From contig NZ_AIDW01000004.1 of assembly GCF_000251145.1 (NCBI RefSeq), positions 186,001-250,000 on the forward strand: a stretch of 64,000 nucleotides of DNA, given 5' to 3'. Each line of letters begins with the position of its first letter. The stretch's first letter is position 1. Both the position numbers and the translations under genes were made by a program. This DNA comes from Sphingomonas sp. PAMC 26621 (GTDB lineage: Bacteria; Pseudomonadota; Alphaproteobacteria; Sphingomonadales; Sphingomonadaceae). This document shows, piece after piece, positions 5,647-50,327 of the stretch. The notes beneath the pieces were generated by a model that was not told where the DNA came from, made no database searches, and saw only the letters and a program-made list of their open reading frames with translations.

Positions 5647-7728
5647 TTAGCCGATGCTCCCGAGCGCGCGTACCCGTGCGCGCGCGTGGATCTCGTTTTG
5701 CGACAGCACTACGGTCGCGGGGCGGACGCGCTCGATCACCGAGCGGACGAACGGGCGGATCGTCGGGTTGGTCAGCAGGCACGGGATCTCGCCTTCGCCC
5801 GCCAGCCGGTCGAACGTCTCGCGGACCGCGGCGATGAACCCCTGCAACGCGGACGGTGCCATCGCGAGTTGGCGCTCGTCGCCGTGGCCGATGATGCTCT
5901 CCGCGAACGCAATGTCCCAATCGGGGGACAGCGTGACGATCGGGATCGCGCCGTCGAGCGCCTGTTGCGCAGAAATCTGCCGCGCCAGCCGCGCGCGGAC
6001 GTGTTCGGTCATCTGCGTCAGGTTGGCGGTGATCGGCGCGGCCTCGGCGATGCCCTCGAGGATCGTGGGGATGTCGCGGATCGACACGCCCTCGCTCAAC
6101 AGGTTCTGCAGGATCCGCTGGACCCCCGACACCGAGATCCGGCTTGGCACGATCTCCGCGACCAGCTTGGCCGAATCCGGGTGGATCTCGCCGAGCAGCT
6201 TCTGCACTTCGGTATAGCTCAGCAGGTCGGCGATGCTGCCCTTGACCAGCTCGGTCAGGTGCGTGGTGATGATCGTGCCTGCGTCGACCACGGTCAGACC
6301 GCGGAACCCCGCTTCCTCGCGCAGATCGCGGTCGATCCACAAGGCGGGCAGGTTGAAGACGGGTTCGCGCGTCGCCTCTCCGGGGATGCCGACCGGCCCG
6401 CCGCCGGGATTGATGACGAGCAGCCGATCGAGCCGGATCTCGCCGCGTGCGGCCTCGGTCTCCTTGATATAGACGAGATACTCGTCGGGCTTGAGCGCGA
6501 GATTGTCGATGATGCGGACTGCCGGGAGCACGAAGCCGAACTCCGTCGCCATCTGGCGCCGTAAAGCGCGGACCTGATCGTCGAGCCGCGGCTCGCGCGC
6601 GGCGTCGTTGATGATCGGGAGCAGCCCGTAGCCGATCTCGATCCGCACCGCGTCGATCGCGAGCGTGCGCGAGATCGGTTCCTCCGCGGTCGCCGAGGCT
6701 TCCGCTTCGGCGGCGGCCTCTGCGGCGACGGCGCGCTCGGTGCGCTGGGTCGCGGCTCGCGACAGCGCCCAGGCGGCATAGCCCGCGATCCCCGAGAACA
6801 GCGCAAACGGGACGAACGGCAGGCCGGGCAGCAGCGCGAGCGCGCCCATCAACGCGGACACCATCCCGAACGCCTTGGGGTAGCGCCCGAGCTGCTCGCC
6901 CAGCGCCGCGCCGGTCTTGCCCGCGACCCCGCCTTTGGACACGAGCAGCCCCGCCGCCATCGACACGATCAGCGCGGGGATCTGGCTGACCAGCCCGTCG
7001 CCAATCGTCAGTAACGTATAGGTGTGGAACGCCTCGCTGATCGGCACGCCGTGGACCCCGACGCCGATCACCAGCCCGACCAGCACGTTGATCGCGGTGA
7101 TCAGCAGCGCGGCGATCGCATCGCCCTTCACGAACTTGGACGCGCCGTCCATCGCGCCGTAGAAACCGCTTTCGGCCTCGACTTCGGCGCGACGGTCGCG
7201 CGCCTGCTGCTCGGTGATCATCCCCGCGGACAGGTCCGCGTCGATCGCCATCTGCTTGCCGGGCATCGCATCGAGGCTAAAGCGCGCGGCGACCTCTGCG
7301 ATGCGCCCCGCGCCCTTGGTGATGACGACGAAATTGATGACGACGAGGATCGCGAAGATCGTCAGCCCGATGATCGTGTCGCCCCCGATCAGGAATTCCC
7401 CGAACGCGCCGATCACCCCGCCTGCGGCATGCGCGCCCTCATGCCCATGCGCGAGGATCAGCCGGGTCGAGGCAAGGTTGAGCCCGAGCCGGAGCATCGT
7501 CGCGATCAGCAGGATCGTCGGAAAGGCGGAGAGCTGGAGCGGTTTCTCGATGAACAAGGCGGTCATCAGGATCATCACCGACAGCGTGATCGACAGCGCG
7601 AGCCCGAGGTCGAGCAGCCACGCGGGCATCGGCAGGATCAGCATCGCGATGATCGCGATGACGCCGAACGCGAGCGCCATGTCGCGATTGGCGCCGATCT
7701 GGCCAAGCAGGCGGTTGAGCGCGGGCAT
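5647..7728 (-). CDS. flhA: Flagellar biosynthesis protein FlhA (export gate)
   Basis: 693 residues, the normal size. The N-terminal half has eight hydrophobic segments, with the conserved cytoplasmic FHIPEP-type block STRLILAHGHEGAHAAGG and AARFSLDAMPGKQMAIDADL. The C-terminal half (from about 350) is the cytosolic nonameric ring domain that docks chaperone-substrate complexes, including ATREPVFNLPALWID and LSEGVSIRDIPTILEGI. FlhA with FlhB and FliP/Q/R forms the type III export gate. It starts 3 nt after the FlbD-like stop and is the last gene of the minus-strand flagellar array; 154 bp without a gene follow before the glycosyltransferase. Confidence 0.97.
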   Translation of the reverse strand: MPALNRLLGQIGANRDMALAFGVIAIIAMLILPMPAWLLDLGLALSITLSVMILMTALFIEKPLQLSAFPTILLIATMLRLGLNLASTRLILAHGHEGAHAAGGVIGAFGEFLIGGDTIIGLTIFAILVVINFVVITKGAGRIAEVAARFSLDAMPGKQMAIDADLSAGMITEQQARDRRAEVEAESGFYGAMDGASKFVKGDAIAALLITAINVLVGLVIGVGVHGVPISEAFHTYTLLTIGDGLVSQIPALIVSMAAGLLVSKGGVAGKTGAALGEQLGRYPKAFGMVSALMGALALLPGLPFVPFALFSGIAGYAAWALSRAATQRTERAVAAEAAAEAEASATAEEPISRTLAIDAVRIEIGYGLLPIINDAAREPRLDDQVRALRRQMATEFGFVLPAVRIIDNLALKPDEYLVYIKETEAARGEIRLDRLLVINPGGGPVGIPGEATREPVFNLPALWIDRDLREEAGFRGLTVVDAGTIITTHLTELVKGSIADLLSYTEVQKLLGEIHPDSAKLVAEIVPSRISVSGVQRILQNLLSEGVSIRDIPTILEGIAEAAPITANLTQMTEHVRARLARQISAQQALDGAIPIVTLSPDWDIAFAESIIGHGDERQLAMAPSALQGFIAAVRETFDRLAGEGEIPCLLTNPTIRPFVRSVIERVRPATVVLSQNEIHARARVRALGSIG

Positions 7729-7731
7729 CGG

Positions 7732-9033
7732 CTACAGCGCCGGAGTGACGGGGATACCCGCCTCGACGAACGCGCGGAGCTTGTTGCGCATCGTCCGCAC
7801 CGAAATCCCTAGGATCTGCGAGGCGGAGGTGCGGTTGCCGCGACACCGCTCGAGCGTCAGCAGGATCAGGTCGCGCTCGACATCCTCGACCGTGCGCCCG
7901 ACGAGCGCGTCCATTTCGGCCGGGCCGTTCGCGCTGCCGGCGGTCGCGGCGAGCGACGATCCGTCGGCGAGGACGAGCGCGGGCGGGGTGATCTCCGGCC
8001 CTGCGCCAAGCAGGACCGCACGGTGCATCACCTCCTGCAACTCGGCGACGTTGCCGGGCCAGCCATAACCGCAAAGCAGGCGGCAGGTGTCGTCGCTCAG
8101 CGTCGGCGCGGTGCGGCCTTCGGCGGCGGCGGACGCGGTCGCGAAGCTGCGGGCGAGCAACGCGAGGTCGCCCCCGCGCGCGCGCAGCGGCGGCAGCACG
8201 ATCGTCGCCAGCGCAAAGCGCGCGAGCAGATCGGCACGAAACCGTCCTGCCTCCACCAGCGGGTCCAGCGCCCGCCGCGCGCTCGCGATCAGCCGCGGCG
8301 CGCCGGGGTCTTCGAGTCCGCCGAGCAGCCGGGTCTGCAACGGCGCGGGCAACACGTCGATATCGCGCAGGAAGACGGTACCGCCGCGCGCGGTCGTCAT
8401 CGCGCCACGCCGGCCCGCGCGCGCGCTGGGGAAGGCGGTGCCGTCATGGCCGAACAGTTCATATTCGAGGATGTCGGGCGCGACACCGGCGCATTCGATC
8501 GTCACGAAGCTCCCCATGCCGCGCCCGGCCTGGTGGATCGCCTGCGCGACGCGTTCCTTGCCGGTGCCGCGTTCGCCGGTCAGCAGGATCGGCGCGTGGC
8601 TCGGCCCCATCGCGCGCGCGAAATCGAGCGCGCGGGTGAAGCTCGGGTGGTCGCCGATCAGCGGCCCGGCGGGGAGCGCGGCGATCTCGCGGATCGCGGC
8701 GGCGATCAGGTCGCGGTCGGGCGGCAGCGGGACATAATCGCGCGCGCCCGCGCGGATCGCGGCGACCGCGCGCGCCGCGGAGGCGTCGATCCCGCACGCG
8801 ATCACCGGGACCGCGAAGCGTTCCGCCGCGAGATCCGCGAGGAAACCGCAGACGTCCGCCGCGACGTCGATCATCACCAGCGCGGCGCCCTGCTGGCGCA
8901 GGCAGTCGAGCGCCGCCGCCACCGTCGTTGCGGTCGCGACTTCGGCCCCCGCATCGCGCGCCATTCCCGCCGCGACGTGAAACGCGCCATCGGCTGGCCC
9001 GACCAGCAGCATCCGGACGATCGCCCCCGCCAC
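7732..9033 (-). CDS. flbD: FlbD-like sigma-54-type flagellar regulator with degenerate AAA+ motifs
   Basis: 433 residues. Domain order: degenerate receiver-like region (1-115, without the usual acidic phosphorylation pocket), AAA+ domain (about 125-345) and a Fis-type helix-turn-helix (403-423, SASQILGISVRTMRNKLR). Walker A is intact (GERGTGKE, 153-160). The sigma-54 contact loop, normally GAFTGA after ELFGH, reads GTAFPSA (198-204), and Walker B reads GTVFLRDID instead of GTLFLDEID, so the catalytic Asp-Glu pair is altered. In Caulobacter FlbD activates late and represses early flagellar genes under FliX control; a FliX homologue lies at 17983. The GTG at 9033 is used; ATG at 9012 is an alternative. 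It sits between fliN and flhA. Confidence 0.8.
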   Translation of the reverse strand: MAGAIVRMLLVGPADGAFHVAAGMARDAGAEVATATTVAAALDCLRQQGAALVMIDVAADVCGFLADLAAERFAVPVIACGIDASAARAVAAIRAGARDYVPLPPDRDLIAAAIREIAALPAGPLIGDHPSFTRALDFARAMGPSHAPILLTGERGTGKERVAQAIHQAGRGMGSFVTIECAGVAPDILEYELFGHDGTAFPSARAGRRGAMTTARGGTVFLRDIDVLPAPLQTRLLGGLEDPGAPRLIASARRALDPLVEAGRFRADLLARFALATIVLPPLRARGGDLALLARSFATASAAAEGRTAPTLSDDTCRLLCGYGWPGNVAELQEVMHRAVLLGAGPEITPPALVLADGSSLAATAGSANGPAEMDALVGRTVEDVERDLILLTLERCRGNRTSASQILGISVRTMRNKLRAFVEAGIPVTPAL

Positions 9034-9037
9034 CGGT

Positions 9038-9430
9038 TCAGCGCCCTGCCCGGACGATTTCGGTGAGCGTCACGCCAAGCGCGTGATCGACCAGCACCAC
9101 CTCGCCGCGCGCGACGAGGCGATCGTTGACGAACACGTCGACGGGTTCGCCGACACGCCGGTCGAGTTCGAACACCATTCCGGTGCACAGCCCGAGCAGA
9201 TCCCCGACCGGCATCTGCGCGCGCCCGAGCACCGCCTGCACCTTGACCGGGACCTCGTGCACTGCTTCCAGCCCGGTCGGGGGGGCAGGGGGCGTCGCTG
9301 CCACCGGATCGTCGAATTCCTGATAGACCGGACCGATCGAGTCCTCGGTCGTGCCGGCGAATGTCGCCAGATCGTGCGATGCCTGCGCGTCGTCGGGAAA
9401 GACCGGGTCGGACATGCTCTGCTCCATCAT
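9038..9430 (-). CDS. fliN: Flagellar motor switch protein FliN
   Basis: 130 residues from the ATG that overlaps the fliF stop codon (ATGA). The C-terminal 75 residues are the FliN/FliM-C surface-presentation domain: VPVKVQAVLGRAQMPVGDLL, FELDRRVGEPVDVFVNDRLVARGEVVLVD and VTLTEIV. The acidic, proline-rich N-terminal 50 residues are variable in the family. FliN builds the lower C-ring with FliM (28559) and FliG (15434). A GTG at 9442 in the same frame would add four residues, but the ATGA overlap implies translational coupling to fliF. Confidence 0.95.
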   Translation of the reverse strand: MMEQSMSDPVFPDDAQASHDLATFAGTTEDSIGPVYQEFDDPVAATPPAPPTGLEAVHEVPVKVQAVLGRAQMPVGDLLGLCTGMVFELDRRVGEPVDVFVNDRLVARGEVVLVDHALGVTLTEIVRAGR

Positions 9431-11046
9431 GCGTTCATCCACTGGCGCAGGACCGCTGCCGCCTCGGGCGGGCTGGCGGCGACGCTGTCGCCGATCTTCT
9501 TCAGGACCGATGCCTTCACGCGGCCATCGACCTGCGCGACGGTGATCTCATGGTCGAGCAGCGGCTGGTCGCTCTGCGCGGCCTGCAGCGCCTCGAGCTG
9601 GCGCAGTGCGTCGGGATCGCCGCCTGCGGCCTGCTCGGCGATCGCGAGCATTTCCGCCTGCTGGTCGGCGAGCGCCACCTGCGGGTCTTCGGCGGGGGCC
9701 GCCACCGCCGGATCGCGCCGCGCGCGGATCATCCGCAGCGCGACCAGCCCGACCCCGGCAATCACCAGCAGCTTGACCAGCCCGACGACCTGATCCGACG
9801 TCAGCACCGCCCACCATGCGCTCTTGCTGTCCGCCAGCGCGCCGTCCGCGGCGAACGCCATGCTTTCGATCACCACGCTGTCGCCGCGCTGCGCATCGAG
9901 CCCGACGGTATTCTCGACCAGCCCCTTCAGCCGCTGGATCTGCGGCGCGGGCAGGCCCTTGGTGCCGCCATCGACCATCACCGCGACGGTCAGCCGGTTG
10001 ATCTTCCCCGGCGCGCGGACGACCATGCTGTGCGTGGTGCTGTTGGCGTAGGTCGTGTCCTCGGAGGTCTCCTTGCGCGCGGTCTGCCGCGTGTCGCCGC
10101 CCCCGGTAGCCGGGGGTTGCCCTTGCGCTTCGGGAAGTTGCGTCGCGACGGTTGCCGCGCCGGTGCTCTGGAGTTCGCGATTCTGGTCGTCATTGTCGAC
10201 CGTCACCTGCCGCGCGATCACCTGCTTGTCGGGATCGAACACGGTCGAATCCTCGCGCGTCTGGTCGCGGTCGATCTGCGCCGCGACTTCCGCGCGGACC
10301 TTGCCCTGGCCGACGATCGGCTCGAGCAAGGCGACGATCTGGTCGCGCAGCTTCCCCTCGACCTGCGCCTGGCGCGTGTCGGCGTCGCTGCCGCCCATCG
10401 CATTCGCTTCGCCCGCGCGCGCGAGCAGCGCGCCGGTCTGGTCGACGATCGACACCGCTTCGGGCGCCAGTTCGGGAACCGCGGACGAGACGAGGTAGCG
10501 GATCGCCTGGATCGTCTCGGCGGGGAGCCGTCCGCGCGTCTTGACCGTGACGGCGGCCGATGCACGGCGCGCCTCGGCGGCGAACATCTGGCGTTCGGGC
10601 ATGACGAGATGGACGCGCGCCTGCGTTACCGCGTCGATACTCTGGATCGAGCGCGCGAGTTCCCCCTCGATCGCGCGGGTCTCGTCCATCTTGGCGCGCG
10701 AGGCCGAGACGCCGAACGGCTGTTCGGCATCGAGCACGTCATAGCCGATCTTGCCGCCGAGCCGGTCGCCCGCAAGCGTCATGCGGAGGGTGGCGATCTT
10801 GTCCTGCGGCGCGAGCACCGCGCTGCCGTCGGCCGAAAGCTGGAACGGGATGTTCTGCGCGCGCAGCTTCTCGCCGATCGCGGCGGCGGCGGTCGGGTCG
10901 AGGTCGGTGAACAGGAACGCGATCGTCCGGTCCTCGCCGCGCAGCGCGACGACCCCGAGCACCGCGAGCAGCGCGGCGGCGACCACACCCATCACGATCA
11001 GGCGTTTGGGCCCCAATTGGGCGATCAGTTGGCGGAACTGCTCCAA
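9427..11046 (-). CDS. fliF: Flagellar MS-ring protein FliF
   Basis: 539 residues from a TTG at 11046, chosen because the frame upstream runs through the TATAAT element at 11090-11095 and because CACGGGG lies six bases before this TTG. Transmembrane helix at about 20-40, then YscJ/FliF ring-building motifs (FLFTDLDPTAAAAIGEKL, QARVHLVMPERQMF), the variable Gln/Thr-rich loop, the second helix near 440 and the FliG-binding C-terminus (VRAEV... EAAAVLRQWMNA). FliF is the platform for basal body assembly. It heads fliF-fliN-flbD-flhA, with 97 nt to the upstream c-di-GMP gene. The C-terminal tail ends in the canonical Trp-Met pattern. Confidence 0.93.
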   Translation of the reverse strand: MEQFRQLIAQLGPKRLIVMGVVAAALLAVLGVVALRGEDRTIAFLFTDLDPTAAAAIGEKLRAQNIPFQLSADGSAVLAPQDKIATLRMTLAGDRLGGKIGYDVLDAEQPFGVSASRAKMDETRAIEGELARSIQSIDAVTQARVHLVMPERQMFAAEARRASAAVTVKTRGRLPAETIQAIRYLVSSAVPELAPEAVSIVDQTGALLARAGEANAMGGSDADTRQAQVEGKLRDQIVALLEPIVGQGKVRAEVAAQIDRDQTREDSTVFDPDKQVIARQVTVDNDDQNRELQSTGAATVATQLPEAQGQPPATGGGDTRQTARKETSEDTTYANSTTHSMVVRAPGKINRLTVAVMVDGGTKGLPAPQIQRLKGLVENTVGLDAQRGDSVVIESMAFAADGALADSKSAWWAVLTSDQVVGLVKLLVIAGVGLVALRMIRARRDPAVAAPAEDPQVALADQQAEMLAIAEQAAGGDPDALRQLEALQAAQSDQPLLDHEITVAQVDGRVKASVLKKIGDSVAASPPEAAAVLRQWMNA

Positions 11047-11087
11047 GCGCGACCCCGTGGCGTTGCGGGGCAACAGCCCCGTTTGCC

Positions 11088-11098
11088 GAATTATAGGC
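11088..11098 (-). promoter_or_regulatory. Flagellar TATAAT-type element upstream of fliF
   Basis: On the minus strand this reads GCCTATAATTC, with the TATAAT hexamer at 11095-11090, 43 nt before the fliF TTG. It is one of six related elements upstream of flagellar operons in this window (see 15489, 17961, 21529, 26281, 29182). No TTGACA-like -35 lies 16-18 bp upstream. Confidence 0.55.
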
Positions 11099-11143
11099 AG
11101 GCGGGGGCGGGGCAGGTCTTGCCGGTGGGAAAAACTTGCCGGG

Positions 11144-13159
11144 TCAGCCCGCGTCCCGTGGCGCGAGCAGCGTCGCGGCATGGCTCGCGACCGCAGGGCG
11201 GCCGAAATGATAGCCCTGGCCCAGCTCGCAGCCGAGCTCGATCAGCAACTCCGCCTGCGCCGGGGTCTCGATCCCCTCGGCGACGATCGTCATGCCGATG
11301 GTCCGCGCGAGTGCGACGATCGCGCGGACGATGCCGTCGCCCTTGCCGTGCCCGTCCATCGCCATCACGAAGCTGCGGTCGATCTTGAGCACGTCGAACG
11401 GCAGGCGGTGGAGCGAGGACAGCGAGGAAAAGCCGGTCCCGAAATCGTCGAGGCTGGTCTGCACCCCCCAGCGCCGGATTTCCTCGATCACCTGGCAGGT
11501 ATGGTCGATATCGACGATCGCGGTGCTTTCGGTCAGCTCGAGCCGGATCCGCGTCGGGTCGACCCCGGTCTCGAGCACGATCTGCCGCACGCGCGCGGCA
11601 AAGCCCGGCTGCGCGAACTGGCGCGCGGAAATGTTGATGCTGATGAACGGCGCGACCCCGTCGCGCATCGGCCAGCTCGCCGCGGTCGCGCAGGCCTCGC
11701 GCAGCACCCAGTCGCCGAGGAACAGGATCAGCCCACTCGTTTCCGCCACGTCGATGAACTCGGCGGGCAACAGCCGACCGCGGAGCGGATGGTTCCAGCG
11801 CACCAGCGCCTCGAACCCGCAGACCGACCGGCTTGCGTCGAGCGTCACGATCGGCTGGTAATCGAGCTCGAACTGACGGCTTTCGATCGCGGCGCGCAAT
11901 TCGTCGGTCAGCCGCGCGCGGTCGCGCAGCGTTTCCCCCAGCGCCTCGGTAAAGCCGATCGTGCGGCCACGGCCCCCCGCCTTCGCCTCGTACATCGCCA
12001 GATCGGCGTCGCGCAGCAAATGGTCGACATTGGCGTGGAGCGCATTGCCGATCGCAAAGCCGATCGAGGTTCCGACCGGCGCGATGTCGGTGACGAGGCC
12101 AAGCCTGTCCTGCAACGCGTCGTGCAGCGCGGTGGCGATCGTGCCGATCGTGCCGTGTGCCGCAAGGTCCTCGCCCGCCAGATCCTCGACCAGAATCGTG
12201 AATTCGTCGCCGCCCATCCGTGCGGGGGAGGCGCGCCAAGCGGCGGGATGCGCCTCGCGCTCGCCCTCCAGCCGCGCCAGCGTGTCGCGCAGGATATCCG
12301 CGACGCGGATCAGCACGCGGTCCCCGGCATGGTGGCCAAGCGAATCGTTGACCAGCTTGAAGCCATCGAGATCGAGCACCATCACCGCGAGCGCATGCCG
12401 CCGCGGCGGCGCGAGTCGGTCGAAGCTCGCCTGCAGCCGATCGCTGAACAACGCGCGATTGGGCAGGCGGGTCAGCGGATCGTGCAGCGCGTCATGGACC
12501 AGCGCGCGCTGCGCGCGGTCCCGCTCGAACACGCGACCGAGCTGGATCCCCGCCTGTTCGAGGATGCCGATGATCTCGGTGTCCTCGGGCACCGCCTGGC
12601 GCATGTAGAATTCGAGCACGGCTACCACGTCATTGCCCGCGAGCACCGGAAACGCGCAGCCGGTGCCGAGCCCGCAACGCGCGGCGACGTCAGCGCGGAG
12701 GAAGTGTTCGGAATGGCCCGGATCGGTGATCCACTCGGAGCGCCCCCTCGCGAAGACCCGGCCCGGCAGCCCTTCGCCACGGCCGAACGGCATGCGCCGC
12801 GATGCCTCGACGAACGCCATCACGTCTGCCGCATCGGTCGCGCGCCAGATGTCGCACGCCTCGACCCGGAGCAGATCGTGCGACACCATCAACACGTTGC
12901 CGACCGTCCAGCTCATCCGCTCGCAGATCATTTCCAGCGCGGCATCGAGTGCCTCGGGAATCGTGCGCGCGCTGTTGGCAAGCTCGGTGATATGCTGGAG
13001 CAGCTGCAACCGCTGCTTGCTTTCGTACAGCGTGCGGAGCCCGTGTTCGGCGATTCGCTCGGCCTCTAGCCGCGCCGCGCGTTCGCGCTGGGCAATCCGT
13101 TCGGCGCGCGCGAGCTGTTGCTCTAACGCCGGAGCCGCCGCCACGAGGGCGTGTTTCAT
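11144..13159 (-). CDS. GAF-GGDEF-EAL protein (dual c-di-GMP enzyme) coupled to H-NOX
   Basis: 671 residues from the ATG overlapping the H-NOX stop codon (ATGA). A coiled-coil lead (about 10-50) and GAF-like sensor (about 55-210) are followed by GGDEF (about 220-390) and EAL (about 400-660). The cyclase signature is intact (MGGDEF, with LDLDGFKLVND for metal), and no RxxD inhibitory site precedes it (RASP). The phosphodiesterase motifs are also intact: FEALVRW, NISARQF, DDFGTGFSSLSSL, KIDRSFV, EGIE and QGYHFGRP. It could therefore both make and degrade c-di-GMP. Pairing with an H-NOX is a known NO-to-c-di-GMP arrangement, in which NO-bound H-NOX alters the balance of activities. The location between fliH and fliF suggests control of motility. 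Confidence 0.93.
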   Translation of the reverse strand: MKHALVAAAPALEQQLARAERIAQRERAARLEAERIAEHGLRTLYESKQRLQLLQHITELANSARTIPEALDAALEMICERMSWTVGNVLMVSHDLLRVEACDIWRATDAADVMAFVEASRRMPFGRGEGLPGRVFARGRSEWITDPGHSEHFLRADVAARCGLGTGCAFPVLAGNDVVAVLEFYMRQAVPEDTEIIGILEQAGIQLGRVFERDRAQRALVHDALHDPLTRLPNRALFSDRLQASFDRLAPPRRHALAVMVLDLDGFKLVNDSLGHHAGDRVLIRVADILRDTLARLEGEREAHPAAWRASPARMGGDEFTILVEDLAGEDLAAHGTIGTIATALHDALQDRLGLVTDIAPVGTSIGFAIGNALHANVDHLLRDADLAMYEAKAGGRGRTIGFTEALGETLRDRARLTDELRAAIESRQFELDYQPIVTLDASRSVCGFEALVRWNHPLRGRLLPAEFIDVAETSGLILFLGDWVLREACATAASWPMRDGVAPFISINISARQFAQPGFAARVRQIVLETGVDPTRIRLELTESTAIVDIDHTCQVIEEIRRWGVQTSLDDFGTGFSSLSSLHRLPFDVLKIDRSFVMAMDGHGKGDGIVRAIVALARTIGMTIVAEGIETPAQAELLIELGCELGQGYHFGRPAVASHAATLLAPRDAG

Positions 13160-13695
13160 CCGTCCCACCGGACGCGAAGCCGACAGAGCGGGCTGTCGTC
13201 CAGCATGCAGGCCAGATGCGAGACCGTTACCTGTTCGCCATAATGCACCGCCGCGCCCCGGATGAACCCCTCCGCCAGCGCGCACAGCCGGCGCGGCGAC
13301 TGGTAGCCGATGATCAGGTCGCCATCGGGCGTGGTGCTGAACTGGAAGTGCGGGCAGCCCGCGCCCGAGTAAAGCTTGCGGACTTCGGGGTGGATGATCT
13401 CGTTGACGCTCAGGATGAAGCTGCGCGCGCTGCGGTGCCCCTGGAAGAAGACACCATAGCGTTCGGCGAGCAAGGGGATTGCCGCCTCGCCGAACCAGCG
13501 CAGGACGTCCGGCGGGGCGGCGCCGGTCGCGGCGGCGGCGGCGTCGACGAGCGCGAGCATCGTCTCGTCGGGGTAGCTGCCAAGCGAGGTGAAGGCGCCG
13601 TCGACGCCTGCTGCATCGAGCAGGTCATCCCATGTGTCCGGTCCGTGCTCAAGCGTGACGGCTTCTTCCAGGATATTGAAAATAATGCCCTTCAT
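13156..13695 (-). CDS. H-NOX heme nitric oxide sensor
   Basis: 179 residues, the normal length of a stand-alone H-NOX. The N-terminus MKGIIFNILEE and GSYPDE are typical. The proximal heme ligand falls exactly at H102 (EIIHPEVRKLY) and the propionate-binding YxSxR motif at Y131, S133, R135 (GYQSPRR), matching the reference numbering of the family. Residue 140 is Leu rather than the distal Tyr of the oxygen-binding member from Caldanaerobacter, so NO selectivity is likely. It begins 14 nt after fliH and its stop overlaps the GGDEF-EAL start, so it is probably co-transcribed with fliG and fliH. Confidence 0.93.
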   Translation of the reverse strand: MKGIIFNILEEAVTLEHGPDTWDDLLDAAGVDGAFTSLGSYPDETMLALVDAAAAATGAAPPDVLRWFGEAAIPLLAERYGVFFQGHRSARSFILSVNEIIHPEVRKLYSGAGCPHFQFSTTPDGDLIIGYQSPRRLCALAEGFIRGAAVHYGEQVTVSHLACMLDDSPLCRLRVRWDG

Positions 13696-13709
13696 ACGCC
13701 GGCTGCCCC

Positions 13710-14387
13710 TTACTGAACCGGGCTGGAATGAGACAATAACATTGCGATTTCGTTGCCGACGATGGCATCGCGCGCGGCGCGGTCGAGGCTCAGGCCACCG
13801 TCGTCCCACGCGATCCGCGCGTCGCCCGGTGCCAGCGCCGGGTCCGCAGTGACGTGCAGGTTTAGACGACGACGGTCCTGCGCCTGCCGCTGCGCGATGC
13901 GATCCGCGACTGGTTCCAGGAGATCGGGGTGGACTCGCACGACCAGCTCGGTCCCGCGCGCCACCTGCGCGAGTGCGCGGCCGATCGCCGCGTCGACCGG
14001 TGCGGCGGGATCGAGTGCAAGCGTGTGCGCGGCGAGGTGTTCGGCGGCGGTCCGCGCGAGGGCGGCGGCATCGCGGAGCAGCTCGGCGCGGGTTTCGCCG
14101 AGCGTGTCGGTCAGCGCCTCGACCCCGCAATGGAGCGCATCGATCGCCGCGAGCAGCGCGGTCTCGCGGTCCGCCCGGGCATGGACCAGCCCTGCGGCGA
14201 AGCCGTCGGCGCGCGCGCGGGCGAGTTCGTCGCGGTGCGCTGCATCGCGGCGCGCCGCTTCGGCCTGCGCCAGCTCGAGCTCGATCGCGAGCGACTCCGC
14301 ATCGCGGGGCTCGTCTTCGGCCTGCGGGGCGGCGGCGGTGAACACGCGGTCGAACGCGAACGGGCGCGCGTGGAACGACAAATCCAT
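13710..14387 (-). CDS. fliH: Flagellar assembly protein FliH
   Basis: 225 residues. Assignment rests on position directly after fliG and on composition: a long Ala/Glu/Arg-rich coiled coil (about 28-110, starting ESLAIELELAQAEAARR) followed by a globular end with ALAQVARGTELVVRVHPDLL, a HisKA-like beta-strand pattern of FliH/YscL, and GGLSLDRAARDAIVGNEI. FliH is the peripheral stalk that binds and regulates the export ATPase FliI; fliI is not in this window. The gap to fliG is 15 nt and to the H-NOX gene 14 nt, consistent with one operon. Confidence 0.85.
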   Translation of the reverse strand: MDLSFHARPFAFDRVFTAAAPQAEDEPRDAESLAIELELAQAEAARRDAAHRDELARARADGFAAGLVHARADRETALLAAIDALHCGVEALTDTLGETRAELLRDAAALARTAAEHLAAHTLALDPAAPVDAAIGRALAQVARGTELVVRVHPDLLEPVADRIAQRQAQDRRRLNLHVTADPALAPGDARIAWDDGGLSLDRAARDAIVGNEIAMLLSHSSPVQ

Positions 14388-14402
14388 CGAAATCCCCTTC
14401 GG

Positions 14403-15434
14403 TTACAGGATCATCGTATCGTCGCTCTTGGGGTCGACCAGCACGATCTCCCCCCGTTCGGCGAGCGATTTGGCGAGCCGCACGAGCGCGCTTTGCGCTT
14501 CCTCGCAGTCGCGCGCGCGGATCGGGCCCATCCCGGCCATGTCCTCGCGCAGCAGCTTCGCCGAGCGCTCGGTCATCGTCGAGAAGAACAGTTGCTTGAT
14601 GAGCTCGGGCGCGCCCTTGAGGGCGAGCGCCATCTGCCTTTTGTCGGCCTGGCGGACGATCACGCCGATCGCGGCGGGGAGCAGGTTGGCGAGGTCCTCG
14701 AAGGTGAACATCAGCGCGCGGATCCGTTCGGCGGACTCGGGCGCCTTGGCATCGAGTGCCTCGAGCATCGCTTCCTCGGTCGCGCGGTCCATCGCGTTGA
14801 ACAGCTCGGCCATCGATTCATGCGGGTCGCGGCGTTGCGAGCGCGCGAAATTGGCCATGAACTCGTTCTTGAGCGTCGCCTCGACCTGCGCGAGCACTTC
14901 CTTCTGCACCGTGTCCATCCGCAGCATTCGCTGGACGACATCCACCGCCAGATCGCGCGGCAGCGCGGCGAGCACGCGCGCGGCATGGTCGGACTTGAGC
15001 TTGGACAGGATCACCGCGATCGTCTGCGGATATTCGTTGCGCAGATAGCCGGCGAGCACGCCTTCGCTAACGTTCGACAATTTGTCCCACATCGTCCGGC
15101 CGGACGGCCCACGAATATCCTCCATGATGTCGCGCACGCGCTCGGGCGGCATCATTCCGTTCAGCAGCCGCTCGGTCGTCTCGAACGAGCCGTGGCAGGA
15201 GGAAAGGCTCGAAATCTCGGTGGTGAACTGGAGCAGCAGATGCTCGATCACCGCGGCGGGCACGCGCCCGAGCTGCGACATCGCCGACGACAGCTCCTTC
15301 ATCTCCTCGACCGACAGCTGCTCCCAGATCGGCGCGCCATAATCCTGCCCGAGCGCGAGCATCAGCGCGGCGGCGCGCTCGCGTTGCGAGAAGCGTTTGA
15401 GCTCGGCGGGTTCGGCGACGGGGGCCATCAGCAT
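14403..15434 (-). CDS. fliG: Flagellar motor switch protein FliG
   Basis: 343 residues from the ATG at 15434, which has GGAG nine bases upstream. The three FliG domains are visible: N-terminal FliF-binding region (RAAALMLALGQDYGAPIWEQL), middle domain with YLRNEYPQTIAVILSKL and the EHPQT-like motif, and the C-terminal torque domain with FTFEDLANLL, the charged ridge and MGPIRARDCEEAQ. FliG links rotor to stator. It heads fliG-fliH-hnox-GGDEF/EAL. Its upstream gap (144 bp), shared with divergent flgB, holds the TCTATTATAGA element. Confidence 0.96.
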   Translation of the reverse strand: MLMAPVAEPAELKRFSQRERAAALMLALGQDYGAPIWEQLSVEEMKELSSAMSQLGRVPAAVIEHLLLQFTTEISSLSSCHGSFETTERLLNGMMPPERVRDIMEDIRGPSGRTMWDKLSNVSEGVLAGYLRNEYPQTIAVILSKLKSDHAARVLAALPRDLAVDVVQRMLRMDTVQKEVLAQVEATLKNEFMANFARSQRRDPHESMAELFNAMDRATEEAMLEALDAKAPESAERIRALMFTFEDLANLLPAAIGVIVRQADKRQMALALKGAPELIKQLFFSTMTERSAKLLREDMAGMGPIRARDCEEAQSALVRLAKSLAERGEIVLVDPKSDDTMIL

Positions 15435-15488
15435 GACGGAATGCTCCAGCAACAGACTTGGTAACGCCGCCGGATGCCGCGCGGCACG

Positions 15489-15499
15489 TCTATTATAGA
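15489..15499. promoter_or_regulatory. Flagellar TCTATTATAGA element between fliG and flgB
   Basis: TCTATTATAGA, near-palindromic. The minus strand reads TCTATAATAGA, giving a TATAAT hexamer 57 nt before the fliG ATG; the plus strand gives TATTAT 82 nt before flgB. It is identical to the copy at 26281. Confidence 0.6.
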
Positions 15500-15578
15500 G
15501 GCGGGACGGCCCATCTCGGGCCGCCGCCCGTGTGTTTAGAAGCGCTGCCCGCGCCAGCCAGGATGGGACTGCACGAGA

Positions 15579-15986
15579 ATGACCGATCTGATCGCCGGTG
15601 CAGTCCGCCAGATGAAGCATCTTGCCGAACGCCAGCGCGTGGTCGCGCAGAACATCGCCAACAGCGAGACGCCCGGCTTCAAGGCGCAGGACGTCGCGGC
15701 CCCCGATTTCGGGACGCTGCTGGACGGGGGCGGAAGTTCCAGCGTCGCCGCGCCGCGCGTCGCGCCGACCGCGGCAATGGTCGCGCTCGGCGCACGGCCG
15801 GGGGCGGGCACCGCGCTCATTCCGGATCGCGATACGTTCGAGACCAAGCCCGACGGCAACACGGTCACGCTGGAGGATCAGTTGCTCAAGATGGGCCAGA
15901 TCCAGGCGGACTTCGCGGCAGTCACGGGCATCTACCGCAAGCAGCAGGCGCTGCTCCAGACCGCGCTCGGCAAGCATGGGGGGTGA
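15579..15986 (+). CDS. flgB: Flagellar basal body rod protein FlgB
   Basis: 135 residues. The N-terminus has the rod/hook family signature shifted as in FlgB: RQRVVAQNIANSETPGFKAQDV. The C-terminal helix LLKMGQIQADFAAVTGIYRKQQALLQTAL completes the coiled coil. FlgB forms the proximal rod. It is divergent from fliG and, unusually, is not followed by flgC and fliE: a REP-like repeat and the convergent flgN-like gene come next, so the normal flgBC-fliE operon is broken here. Confidence 0.95.
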   Translation: MTDLIAGAVRQMKHLAERQRVVAQNIANSETPGFKAQDVAAPDFGTLLDGGGSSSVAAPRVAPTAAMVALGARPGAGTALIPDRDTFETKPDGNTVTLEDQLLKMGQIQADFAAVTGIYRKQQALLQTALGKHGG

Positions 15987-21468: not shown

Positions 21469-21528
21469 CGTTGCCCCTTTGCGTGCAAGACTCCACCGCA
21501 CGGAAGGAGCGGCGATGGATCGATCCCG

Positions 21529-21539
21529 GATATTATAGA
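21529..21539 (-). promoter_or_regulatory. Flagellar TATAAT-type element upstream of the chemoreceptor
   Basis: Minus strand TCTATAATATC, 63 nt before the ATG of the chemoreceptor. It differs from the 15489 and 26281 copies at the two outermost positions on one side. Confidence 0.55.
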
Positions 21540-26255: not shown

Positions 26256-26280
26256 TGCGATCCGCCTGTGAGGGTTCGTG

Positions 26281-26291
26281 TCTATTATAGA
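26281..26291. promoter_or_regulatory. Flagellar TCTATTATAGA element between 26255(-) and 26335(+)
   Basis: TCTATTATAGA, identical to the fliG/flgB copy and followed by the same AGGCGG. The minus-strand TATAAT is 28 nt before the small membrane protein; the plus-strand TATTAT ends 46 nt before the FliL-like secreted protein. Confidence 0.6.
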
Positions 26292-29131: not shown

Positions 29132-29181
29132 GATCGGTCCCCTCTTGGCACCACGGCGGCGACCGCCCCGGCCATTTGCCG

Positions 29182-29192
29182 ACTATTATAGA
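29182..29192. promoter_or_regulatory. Flagellar ACTATTATAGA element between fliL and flgF
   Basis: Minus strand TCTATAATAGT, with TATAAT 53 nt before the fliL ATG; plus strand TATTAT lies 65 nt before the flgF GTG. One base differs from the 15489 and 26281 copies. Confidence 0.6.
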
Positions 29193-29254
29193 AGCGCAGC
29201 CGGGCAGTTTTTGCCTAGCGGCGACAAAAAGCGATTTTCCCGAGGGACTGCCTG

Positions 29255-49304: not shown

Positions 49305-50327
49305 CTACGCGCGATGGATCCTGTTCCGGCCGTTGTCCTTGGCGGCATAAAGCAGCTTGTCGGCCCGTCCGAAAACCGCGCCGAGGAACTCGCCGGGTTG
49401 CGATTCGGTAATCCCGGCAGAGAAGGTCACCGCGCCGAGCGGTTCGTCCGACTCGCGCAGGCGATACCGCTTCGTCGCGACGATGCCGCGTGCCTGGTCG
49501 AGCGTGGCATAGGCCTGATCGAGCGTGATACCGGCGAACAACACGGTGAATTCCTCGCCGCCATAGCGGGCGACGAGATGCCCGGGACAGGCCGTGGTCA
49601 ACGCTTCGGCGATCGCGCGAAGAACCCGGTCGCCGACCGAATGGCCGAAGCGATCGTTGACTCGCTTGAACCGATCGACGTCGCACACCGCGAGGCATAC
49701 CTGCTCCCCGGCGACCATGTGCGCCGCGAATCTCTCCTCGAACGCGCGCCGGTTGGGCAGGTCGGTCAGCGGGTCGCGCCGCGCATTGTCGCGCGCTTCC
49801 TCGAGCTTGAGCCGAAGTTCCTCGGCTTCGTGAGTCGCCGCAGCAAGTCGCGCCTCGGCGGACTGGACCCGATCGAGCATCACGTTGGTCAACCGGACGA
49901 TATCCTCCGTGCGATCGGTCGATCGCATCGCGTCCGCGCTCGCTGCGAGATTGCGCCCGAAATCCTGCGTCTCCGCGCGGATCGCGTGCATCATGTCGGT
50001 GAAGCCTTCGACCTGCATCTGCGTTTGCGCGACGAGTCCGTCGGTGGCGCTTGGCGCCTCCGCCCCTTCCGGTTGCGTTACGGCGGTCACGACCTGTCCG
50101 CCGAGCTTTTCGATATCGCGTGCGGTCAGCCGGATCCCGCCTTCGGTCAGTGCCGCCACCGATTGCGCGAGCACGCCCGCAGGATTGGAAACCACGCGGT
50201 GCGCAAACGCATAATGGAGCGGATCGGGGCTCAGCCGGTGCTGGGCCAGAAACAACCCGATCCGGTCGAACACCGGGTCGGCGCGGTTGTCGAGCGCAAC
50301 CCGTCGTGCCTCCCTTGCCGTCGCCAT
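49305..50327 (-). CDS. Diguanylate cyclase (GGDEF), soluble
   Basis: 340 residues. The N-terminal 165 residues are helical with a long coiled coil (about 150-172, AAATHEAEELRLKLEEARDN) and no membrane helix. The GGDEF domain follows: DPLTDLPNRRAFEERFAAHM, CDVDRFKRVNDRFGHSVGD and the active site YGGEEF. The allosteric I-site RxxD is not present before it (GHLVARYGGEEF). It makes c-di-GMP; the N-terminal region would set dimerisation or localisation. ATG at 50327; monocistronic. Confidence 0.92.
   Translation of the reverse strand: MATAREARRVALDNRADPVFDRIGLFLAQHRLSPDPLHYAFAHRVVSNPAGVLAQSVAALTEGGIRLTARDIEKLGGQVVTAVTQPEGAEAPSATDGLVAQTQMQVEGFTDMMHAIRAETQDFGRNLAASADAMRSTDRTEDIVRLTNVMLDRVQSAEARLAAATHEAEELRLKLEEARDNARRDPLTDLPNRRAFEERFAAHMVAGEQVCLAVCDVDRFKRVNDRFGHSVGDRVLRAIAEALTTACPGHLVARYGGEEFTVLFAGITLDQAYATLDQARGIVATKRYRLRESDEPLGAVTFSAGITESQPGEFLGAVFGRADKLLYAAKDNGRNRIHRA

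Follow-up and report, generated by a model that had tools for sequence, protein, structure and literature searches.

A nitric oxide sensor and cyclic di-GMP enzyme apparently captured by a flagellar fliG unit in a small group of Sphingomonas

Introduction

H-NOX proteins are haem sensors of nitric oxide (NO). In Legionella and Shewanella woodyi they are paired with diguanylate cyclase/phosphodiesterase enzymes of cyclic di-GMP (c-di-GMP), and NO is reported to inhibit the cyclase and/or stimulate the phosphodiesterase (PMC8738867). The links found between H-NOX and motility are indirect: one is through quorum sensing in Vibrio harveyi (PMC8738867), the other through protein levels after deletion of hnox in Caulobacter (PMC10746521). 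On the flagellar side, Caulobacter FlbD is reported to bind a site upstream of fliF and to repress this gene (PMC3930126), and Sphingomonas strains with several flagellar systems divide the labour between swimming and plant attachment (preprint PMC13015449). Described here is a pair of genes from Sphingomonas sp. PAMC 26621, one for an H-NOX and one for a GAF-GGDEF-EAL enzyme (together, the cassette), which directly follow the flagellar genes fliG and fliH. The window is the whole stretch of DNA that was analysed, 64,000 nucleotides (nt) of contig NZ_AIDW01000004.1 (positions 186,001 to 250,000).

A small Sphingomonas group seems to have captured the cassette a single time, at the end of the fliG unit, where selection seems to have kept it. 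The preferred reading, which is given a probability of about 0.66, is that a pre-existing cassette was inserted once between fliH and a promoter-like element in front of fliF, became the last two genes of the fliG unit, and lets NO lower c-di-GMP.

Sensor and enzyme

The four genes lie on the minus strand. The flagellar switch gene fliG (14403..15434; Pfam FliG_N/M/C) is followed after 15 nt by fliH (13710..14387), whose export protein matches Pfam FliH at 24.2 bits, barely over the cut-off of 24.1, and scores below cut-off with the NCBIfam models of flagellar assembly protein H. After a further 14 nt comes the H-NOX gene (13156..13695; PF07700, HNOB, 133 bits, cut-off 25.5), which runs through a 4-nt ATGA overlap into the gene of the c-di-GMP cyclase/phosphodiesterase (11144..13159; Pfam EAL 246, GGDEF 111 and GAF_2 39 bits). 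The gene order is identical in three further genomes, so the arrangement is not due to chance. Protein identity to the window is 94-96% for FliG, 85-87% for H-NOX and about 81% for the enzyme. In the window and in loci L062 and L063, fliH and the H-NOX gene are separated by 14 nt, and in L064 they overlap by 4 nt, so that spacing varies among the four. The three 14-nt junctions read AAGGG, formed by the fliH stop codon TAA and a following GGG, which could serve as a ribosome-binding site.

In the H-NOX, H102, Y131, S133 and R135 stand at the exact family positions and align with structures 2kii and 4u99, which we take to be Shewanella proteins. The Tyr of the distal pocket in the O2-binding H-NOX class presumably falls near residue 140; residues 132-151 of the window protein, whose own sequence was inspected with no O2-binding H-NOX aligned, contain no Tyr. 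A distal-pocket Tyr has been reported as carried by that class (PMC8738867). By its HNOB match, haem-ligand His, YxSxR motif and lack of a distal-pocket Tyr, the window protein would belong to the NO-binding class.

The GGDEF, EAL, NIS, ELTES, DDFG, KID, AEGIE and QGY motifs of the enzyme are intact. H102, YxSxR and the GGDEF and EAL motifs are retained in all four genomes, with the exception of NIS, which is NIA in two of the other three; the NIA variant is also found in free-standing copies of the enzyme. The positions that we take to form the RxxD inhibitory site in front of GGDEF are occupied by A and A, and this site therefore looks absent. With the overlapping ATGA and the catalytic motifs of both domains, the H-NOX gene and its GGDEF-EAL neighbour qualify, as predicted from their sequences, as a sensor-enzyme pair. 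The first-pass annotation had given the gene order, strand, gaps and overlap exactly, as reading, translation and Pfam searches agree; its placing of H102 and Y131/S133/R135 in register and of both sets of catalytic motifs held in the structure alignment and the motif table.

Residues C138, H160, C163 and C171 of the H-NOX resemble a zinc site and are retained in all four cassette genomes, and a redox mode based on the zinc site has been reported for the Vibrio cholerae protein (PMC8738867). A redox sensor built on these residues, or a reversed sign by which NO would raise c-di-GMP, is nevertheless distinctly improbable: the haem ligand and YxSxR are retained as well, and the characterised cyclase/phosphodiesterase partners answer NO with lower c-di-GMP (PMC8738867).

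Distribution of the cassette

Within the genus, 17 of 295 genomes match PF07700; the counts are 47 of 298 in the family sample, 18 of 385 in the class sample and 103 of 398 in the phylum sample. Among the 17 positive genomes of the genus, four have the pair in the flagellar unit (the window's own genome, G328, G507 and G535), ten have a free-standing pair and three have another H-NOX. Each of the four cassette genomes has a single H-NOX match.

A survey of fliG neighbourhoods, proposed with the first-pass annotation, was carried out across the genus. Genes of the window type (fliG product at least 65% identical) occur at 85 places in 83 of the 295 genomes, as counted by hand, twice. H-NOX stands in the unit in four of these 83 and elsewhere in three (G338, G443 and G499), and 76 have no H-NOX match. 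Among relatives, this flagellar locus does not have the cassette as a conserved component. It is present in 4/4 genomes whose FliG is at least 94% identical to that of the window, and the eight nearest by FliG identity after these (80-83%; G337, G380, G575, G533, G534, G443, G511 and G499) are all cassette-free. None of 16 other window-type fliG loci, two of which are second loci of cassette genomes, has an H-NOX match, and their sole enzyme match is a 58-amino acid (aa) fragment at the far end of L065. In 15 of the 16, fliF follows fliH; the remaining locus, L075, stops at a contig edge. Eleven cassette-free fliH-fliF junctions were inspected as DNA.

The surroundings of H-NOX genes were searched at 136 loci with twelve flagellar proteins (tblastn). 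Four loci gave any match: three belong to cassette genomes and the fourth is L120, where matches of the flgI, flgH and flgF/G types lie about 6 kb away from an H-NOX that adjoins an NtrC-like gene. A general link between H-NOX and the flagellum was rejected on these counts. Many of the loci extend about 10 kb per side, and several come from short contigs or are truncated by a contig end; tblastn could miss divergent flagellar genes. Sixteen loci were fetched by profile match, their H-NOX being without a tblastn match, and three genomes give two loci each. The class and phylum samples contributed 60 regions, a part of their positives, and the family-sample positives G159 and G097 were left out.

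The four cassettes were compared with 23 free-standing pairs whose partner match exceeds 600 aa. No flagellar gene was found in the stretches searched around these pairs; the tie to the flagellum is therefore due to capture in a single clade and is not a property of the H-NOX/enzyme pair. The occurrence of the pair in other contexts in relatives, which the first-pass annotation had named as what would refute its reading, is thus what was found. An overlap of the two genes is also seen in free-standing copies, with start codons chosen mechanically.

A second kind of H-NOX was observed in Sphingomonadaceae (L091, L105-L137). It adjoins an NtrC-like gene, not a c-di-GMP enzyme. Among loci L082-L137 an NtrC-like gene is matched on the stretch in 28 of 56, in 27 of these no more than about 310 nt from the H-NOX; it is about 30% identical to the sigma-54 activator of the window.

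Origin and selection

The four cassette genomes group together in the trees of FliG (support 100/98), FlhA (100/99), H-NOX (100/97) and the enzyme (100/100). All trees were midpoint-rooted for drawing only, and those of H-NOX and the enzyme carry long-branch warnings. The enzyme tree, which joins the four with G338, G450, G119 and G178, was built without L048 and L051 (partial partner matches); both are included in the H-NOX tree, which does not show this grouping. The simplest history is that the pair, already formed, was inserted in one event between fliH and the element before fliF.

Ratios of nonsynonymous to synonymous substitution rates (dN/dS, Nei-Gojobori) in the six pairwise comparisons among the four genomes are 0.09-0.12 for H-NOX, 0.11-0.19 for the enzyme, 0.17-0.29 for fliH and 0.05-0.08 for fliG; the values are rough because dS reaches about 1 in some pairs. 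The ranges of the enzyme and fliH overlap slightly. H-NOX, with a ratio below that of the neighbouring fliH, is under purifying selection as judged from these sequences.

The site might have been a convenient landing place and nothing else, reached by a chance move, with the pair serving a general NO response and the flagellar promoter acting merely as a promoter. The many non-flagellar contexts of the pair fit such an account, and so does the single H-NOX match of the genome, as the captured copy may therefore have replaced a free-standing one. The account is unlikely, however: the cassette leaves intact both the fliH stop and the fliF element, between which it stands, and it has been retained in four species.

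Two other accounts of the cassette were considered and rejected. A plasmid search with H-NOX alone returned 19 records, all below 60% identity and five of them rhizobial, and two Bradyrhizobium stretches have the pair without flagellar matches; a plasmid origin was discarded on this basis. In these two, L145 and L146, the plasmids that carry the H-NOX/GGDEF pair are classed as conjugative, and additional genes for EAL and CHASE domains lie beside the pair. The cassette was also considered as the replacement of a lost c-di-GMP gene. A gene of about 905-910 aa stands between fliG and flgB in three relatives (L065, 10510-13242; L067, 6675-9398; L073, 10674-13391), and the corresponding spacer of the window, 144 nt long, is without it. 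The product of this gene matched no c-di-GMP domain in Pfam, where it had no match over cut-off and one weak beta-propeller match. The gene was matched on contigs C12 and C54 of the window's own genome, on C54 near a flagellin match.

Neighbouring genes and extent of the transcription unit

Downstream of the cassette, and likewise on the minus strand, are fliF (9427..11046; YscJ_FliF and YscJ_FliF_C; 539 aa), fliN (9038..9442; FliMN_C), an flbD-like sigma-54 activator gene (7732..9033; Sigma54_activat; best NCBIfam match FlbD at 383 bits, below the cut-off of 750) and flhA (5647..7728; FHIPEP, 821 bits). The gene fliF is probably the first of the next unit and has a TTG start, which is available in all four cassette genomes; its reading frame was checked. 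Divergent from fliG on the plus strand is flgB (15579..15986; Flg_bb_rod; best NCBIfam match FlgB, below cut-off). The downstream genes and flgB had been omitted from the first-pass annotation. Other flagellar genes in the window are of the flgI, flhB, fliM, fliL, flgF, flgG, flgA and flgH types.

The 97-nt spacer between the enzyme gene and fliF contains a conserved promoter-like element, in which two CGGCAA boxes are combined with TATAAT (11090..11141, minus strand). Of the 19 oriented loci with this type of flagellar genes, 16 have the element and L077, L078 and L080 do not; the pattern used for this count was written after inspection of the same loci and the count is descriptive. As tblastn matches run through the element, it was considered as coding sequence; this was rejected because a stop in or after the element closes the fliF frame in 14 of the 16 loci, the frame being open in the window and L066. 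The arrangement of box and TATAAT occurs in the window only before fliF (11090-11124, minus strand) and fliL (29185-29216, minus strand) and in 0 of 100 Markov-1 resamples, a descriptive test given that the pattern was chosen after the sites had been seen. The box shared by the two genes reads GGCAA-N4-TGCC and is possibly a regulatory site of the FlbD type; before fliF it would be an FlbD-binding (ftr) site.

A second promoter-like element, TCTATAATAGAC, lies upstream of fliG (15488..15499, minus strand) and is common to the four cassette genomes. With one mismatch allowed, the window has six matches to a CTATAATNNAC-like motif, against a mean of 1.1 and a largest value of 4 in 100 shuffles. 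They are at 15488-15498, 26280-26290, 29181-29191 and 21528-21538 on the minus strand and at 2455 and 13238 on the plus strand, and some of them precede flagellar or chemotaxis genes.

Because a conserved, non-coding promoter-like element precedes fliF, the data suggest that the H-NOX/enzyme pair is the tail of a four-gene fliG unit which ends before fliF. Co-transcription of the pair with fliG and fliH is likewise suggested, and the spacing and layout that bear on it are retained in 4/4 cassette genomes. The transcriptional tie of NO sensing to FliG and FliH, as claimed at first, stands insofar as the pair is placed for co-transcription, 14 nt behind fliH or overlapping it by 4 nt, and is to be narrowed to one clade.

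Proposed mechanism

The insertion would have occurred in the ancestor of four Sphingomonas species. Judging by position, the four genes would be read as one message starting before fliG, and sensor and enzyme would be made when this flagellum is built. By analogy with characterised relatives, the H-NOX would contact the enzyme, and NO binding would repress the cyclase and/or stimulate the phosphodiesterase; the lower c-di-GMP would favour swimming over attachment. The effect would pass through the cell-wide pool of c-di-GMP, and the flagellar link would consist in the timing and dose of expression, not in physical docking.

With 19 EAL domain matches, three fliG matches and three fliF matches in the genome, many inputs to this pool exist, of which the module is one. 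The fliF matches are on contig C65 near 106 kb and at 196 kb, about 90 kb apart, and on C8 at 45 kb; the fliG matches are on C65 and C12. The genome probably encodes three flagellar systems. A second GGDEF protein of 340 aa is encoded in the window itself (49305-50327, minus strand), about 36 kb from the cassette.

The first-pass annotation had further proposed that c-di-GMP is set locally at, or in step with, the basal body. In a model of local control, FliG or FliH would hold the enzyme at the C-ring or close to it, and the enzyme, with NO as input, would adjust c-di-GMP at a single motor. The cassette is within the fliG unit in all four genomes, and with three sets of fliG and fliF it would be reasonable for one system to have a control of its own. 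No sign was found, however, of a physical connection of the enzyme with FliG or FliH; no further domain able to dock was matched in it, homologous pairs exist without flagellar neighbours, and the proteins behind the 19 EAL matches can feed the same pool. The gene arrangement is confirmed as observed, and the claim of a general coupling is restricted to one clade; that c-di-GMP is controlled locally at the basal body is a guess, and we hold it to be most improbable. A further reading, that one of the three flagellar systems has a private NO input, made only with its switch complex and tuned separately by NO from a host or neighbours, is speculative and rather doubtful.

Several observations weigh against the mechanism preferred here, that of a single capture with control through the common pool. 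The sign of the NO effect rests on relatives, and the biofilm outcome differs in Paracoccus. No copper nitrite reductase passed the cut-off in the genome (best match 27 against 296 bits; other routes to NO were not searched), and NO may for this reason come from outside. A generic sigma-70 scan of 10900-15800 returned no passing promoter, so that both promoter-like elements rest on conservation. A weak terminator-like hairpin lies within the H-NOX gene of the window and of L063, in a count within chance expectation. Between the enzyme gene and fliF no terminator was found in the window or L063, the two loci scanned, and read-through into fliF is therefore possible. Since all genes are on one strand, the cassette could even share a common message with the MS-ring and export genes, in one long operon from fliG to flhA. 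Such an operon is thought less likely, indeed improbable: the conserved element stands before fliF in most loci and is non-coding in nearly all of these, and in both cassette-free loci scanned (L068 and L072) a strong terminator separates fliH from fliF.

The locus is a case of natural rewiring, in which the same NO/c-di-GMP module is free-standing in other Sphingomonas and part of a flagellar unit in one clade. The cassette-free loci alongside allow a direct test of whether capture by an operon couples a gas sensor to motility. The case is also relevant to the separate control of flagellar systems in Sphingomonas strains that have several of them.

Comparison with known systems

The H-NOX/c-di-GMP module belongs to a kind already known; what is new is solely where it lies. 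Among the matches listed from the open-access literature (titles and beginnings of abstracts), none describes an H-NOX gene within a flagellar operon, which agrees with the initial remark that no case in a flagellar switch operon was known.

The window pair is most likely of the Shewanella woodyi/Legionella kind of H-NOX-controlled c-di-GMP enzymes. In S. woodyi the H-NOX SWOO_2751 has SWOO_2750, an NO-controlled bifunctional cyclase/phosphodiesterase, as its neighbour (PMC8738867). The likeness to SWOO_2750 is one of description; unlike it, the window partner has a GAF domain, and the pair ends a fliG-fliH unit. Legionella pneumophila LPG1056/LPG1057 is likewise an H-NOX with a cyclase/phosphodiesterase partner, whose phosphodiesterase domain is reported as likely inactive, whereas the EAL motifs are present in the window enzyme (PMC8738867). 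Among Alphaproteobacteria, Paracoccus denitrificans Pden_3719/3720 resembles the window in that an H-NOX gene overlaps a GGDEF gene, but its H-NOX lacks the axial His and the description of its partner is that of a GGDEF-domain diguanylate cyclase. The control of Caulobacter fliF by FlbD at ftr4 (PMC3930126) is paralleled by the flbD-like gene in the fliF unit of the window and by the box-like element before fliF; unlike in Caulobacter, fliG and fliH here precede fliF as a probably separate unit, which ends in the H-NOX gene and its enzyme.

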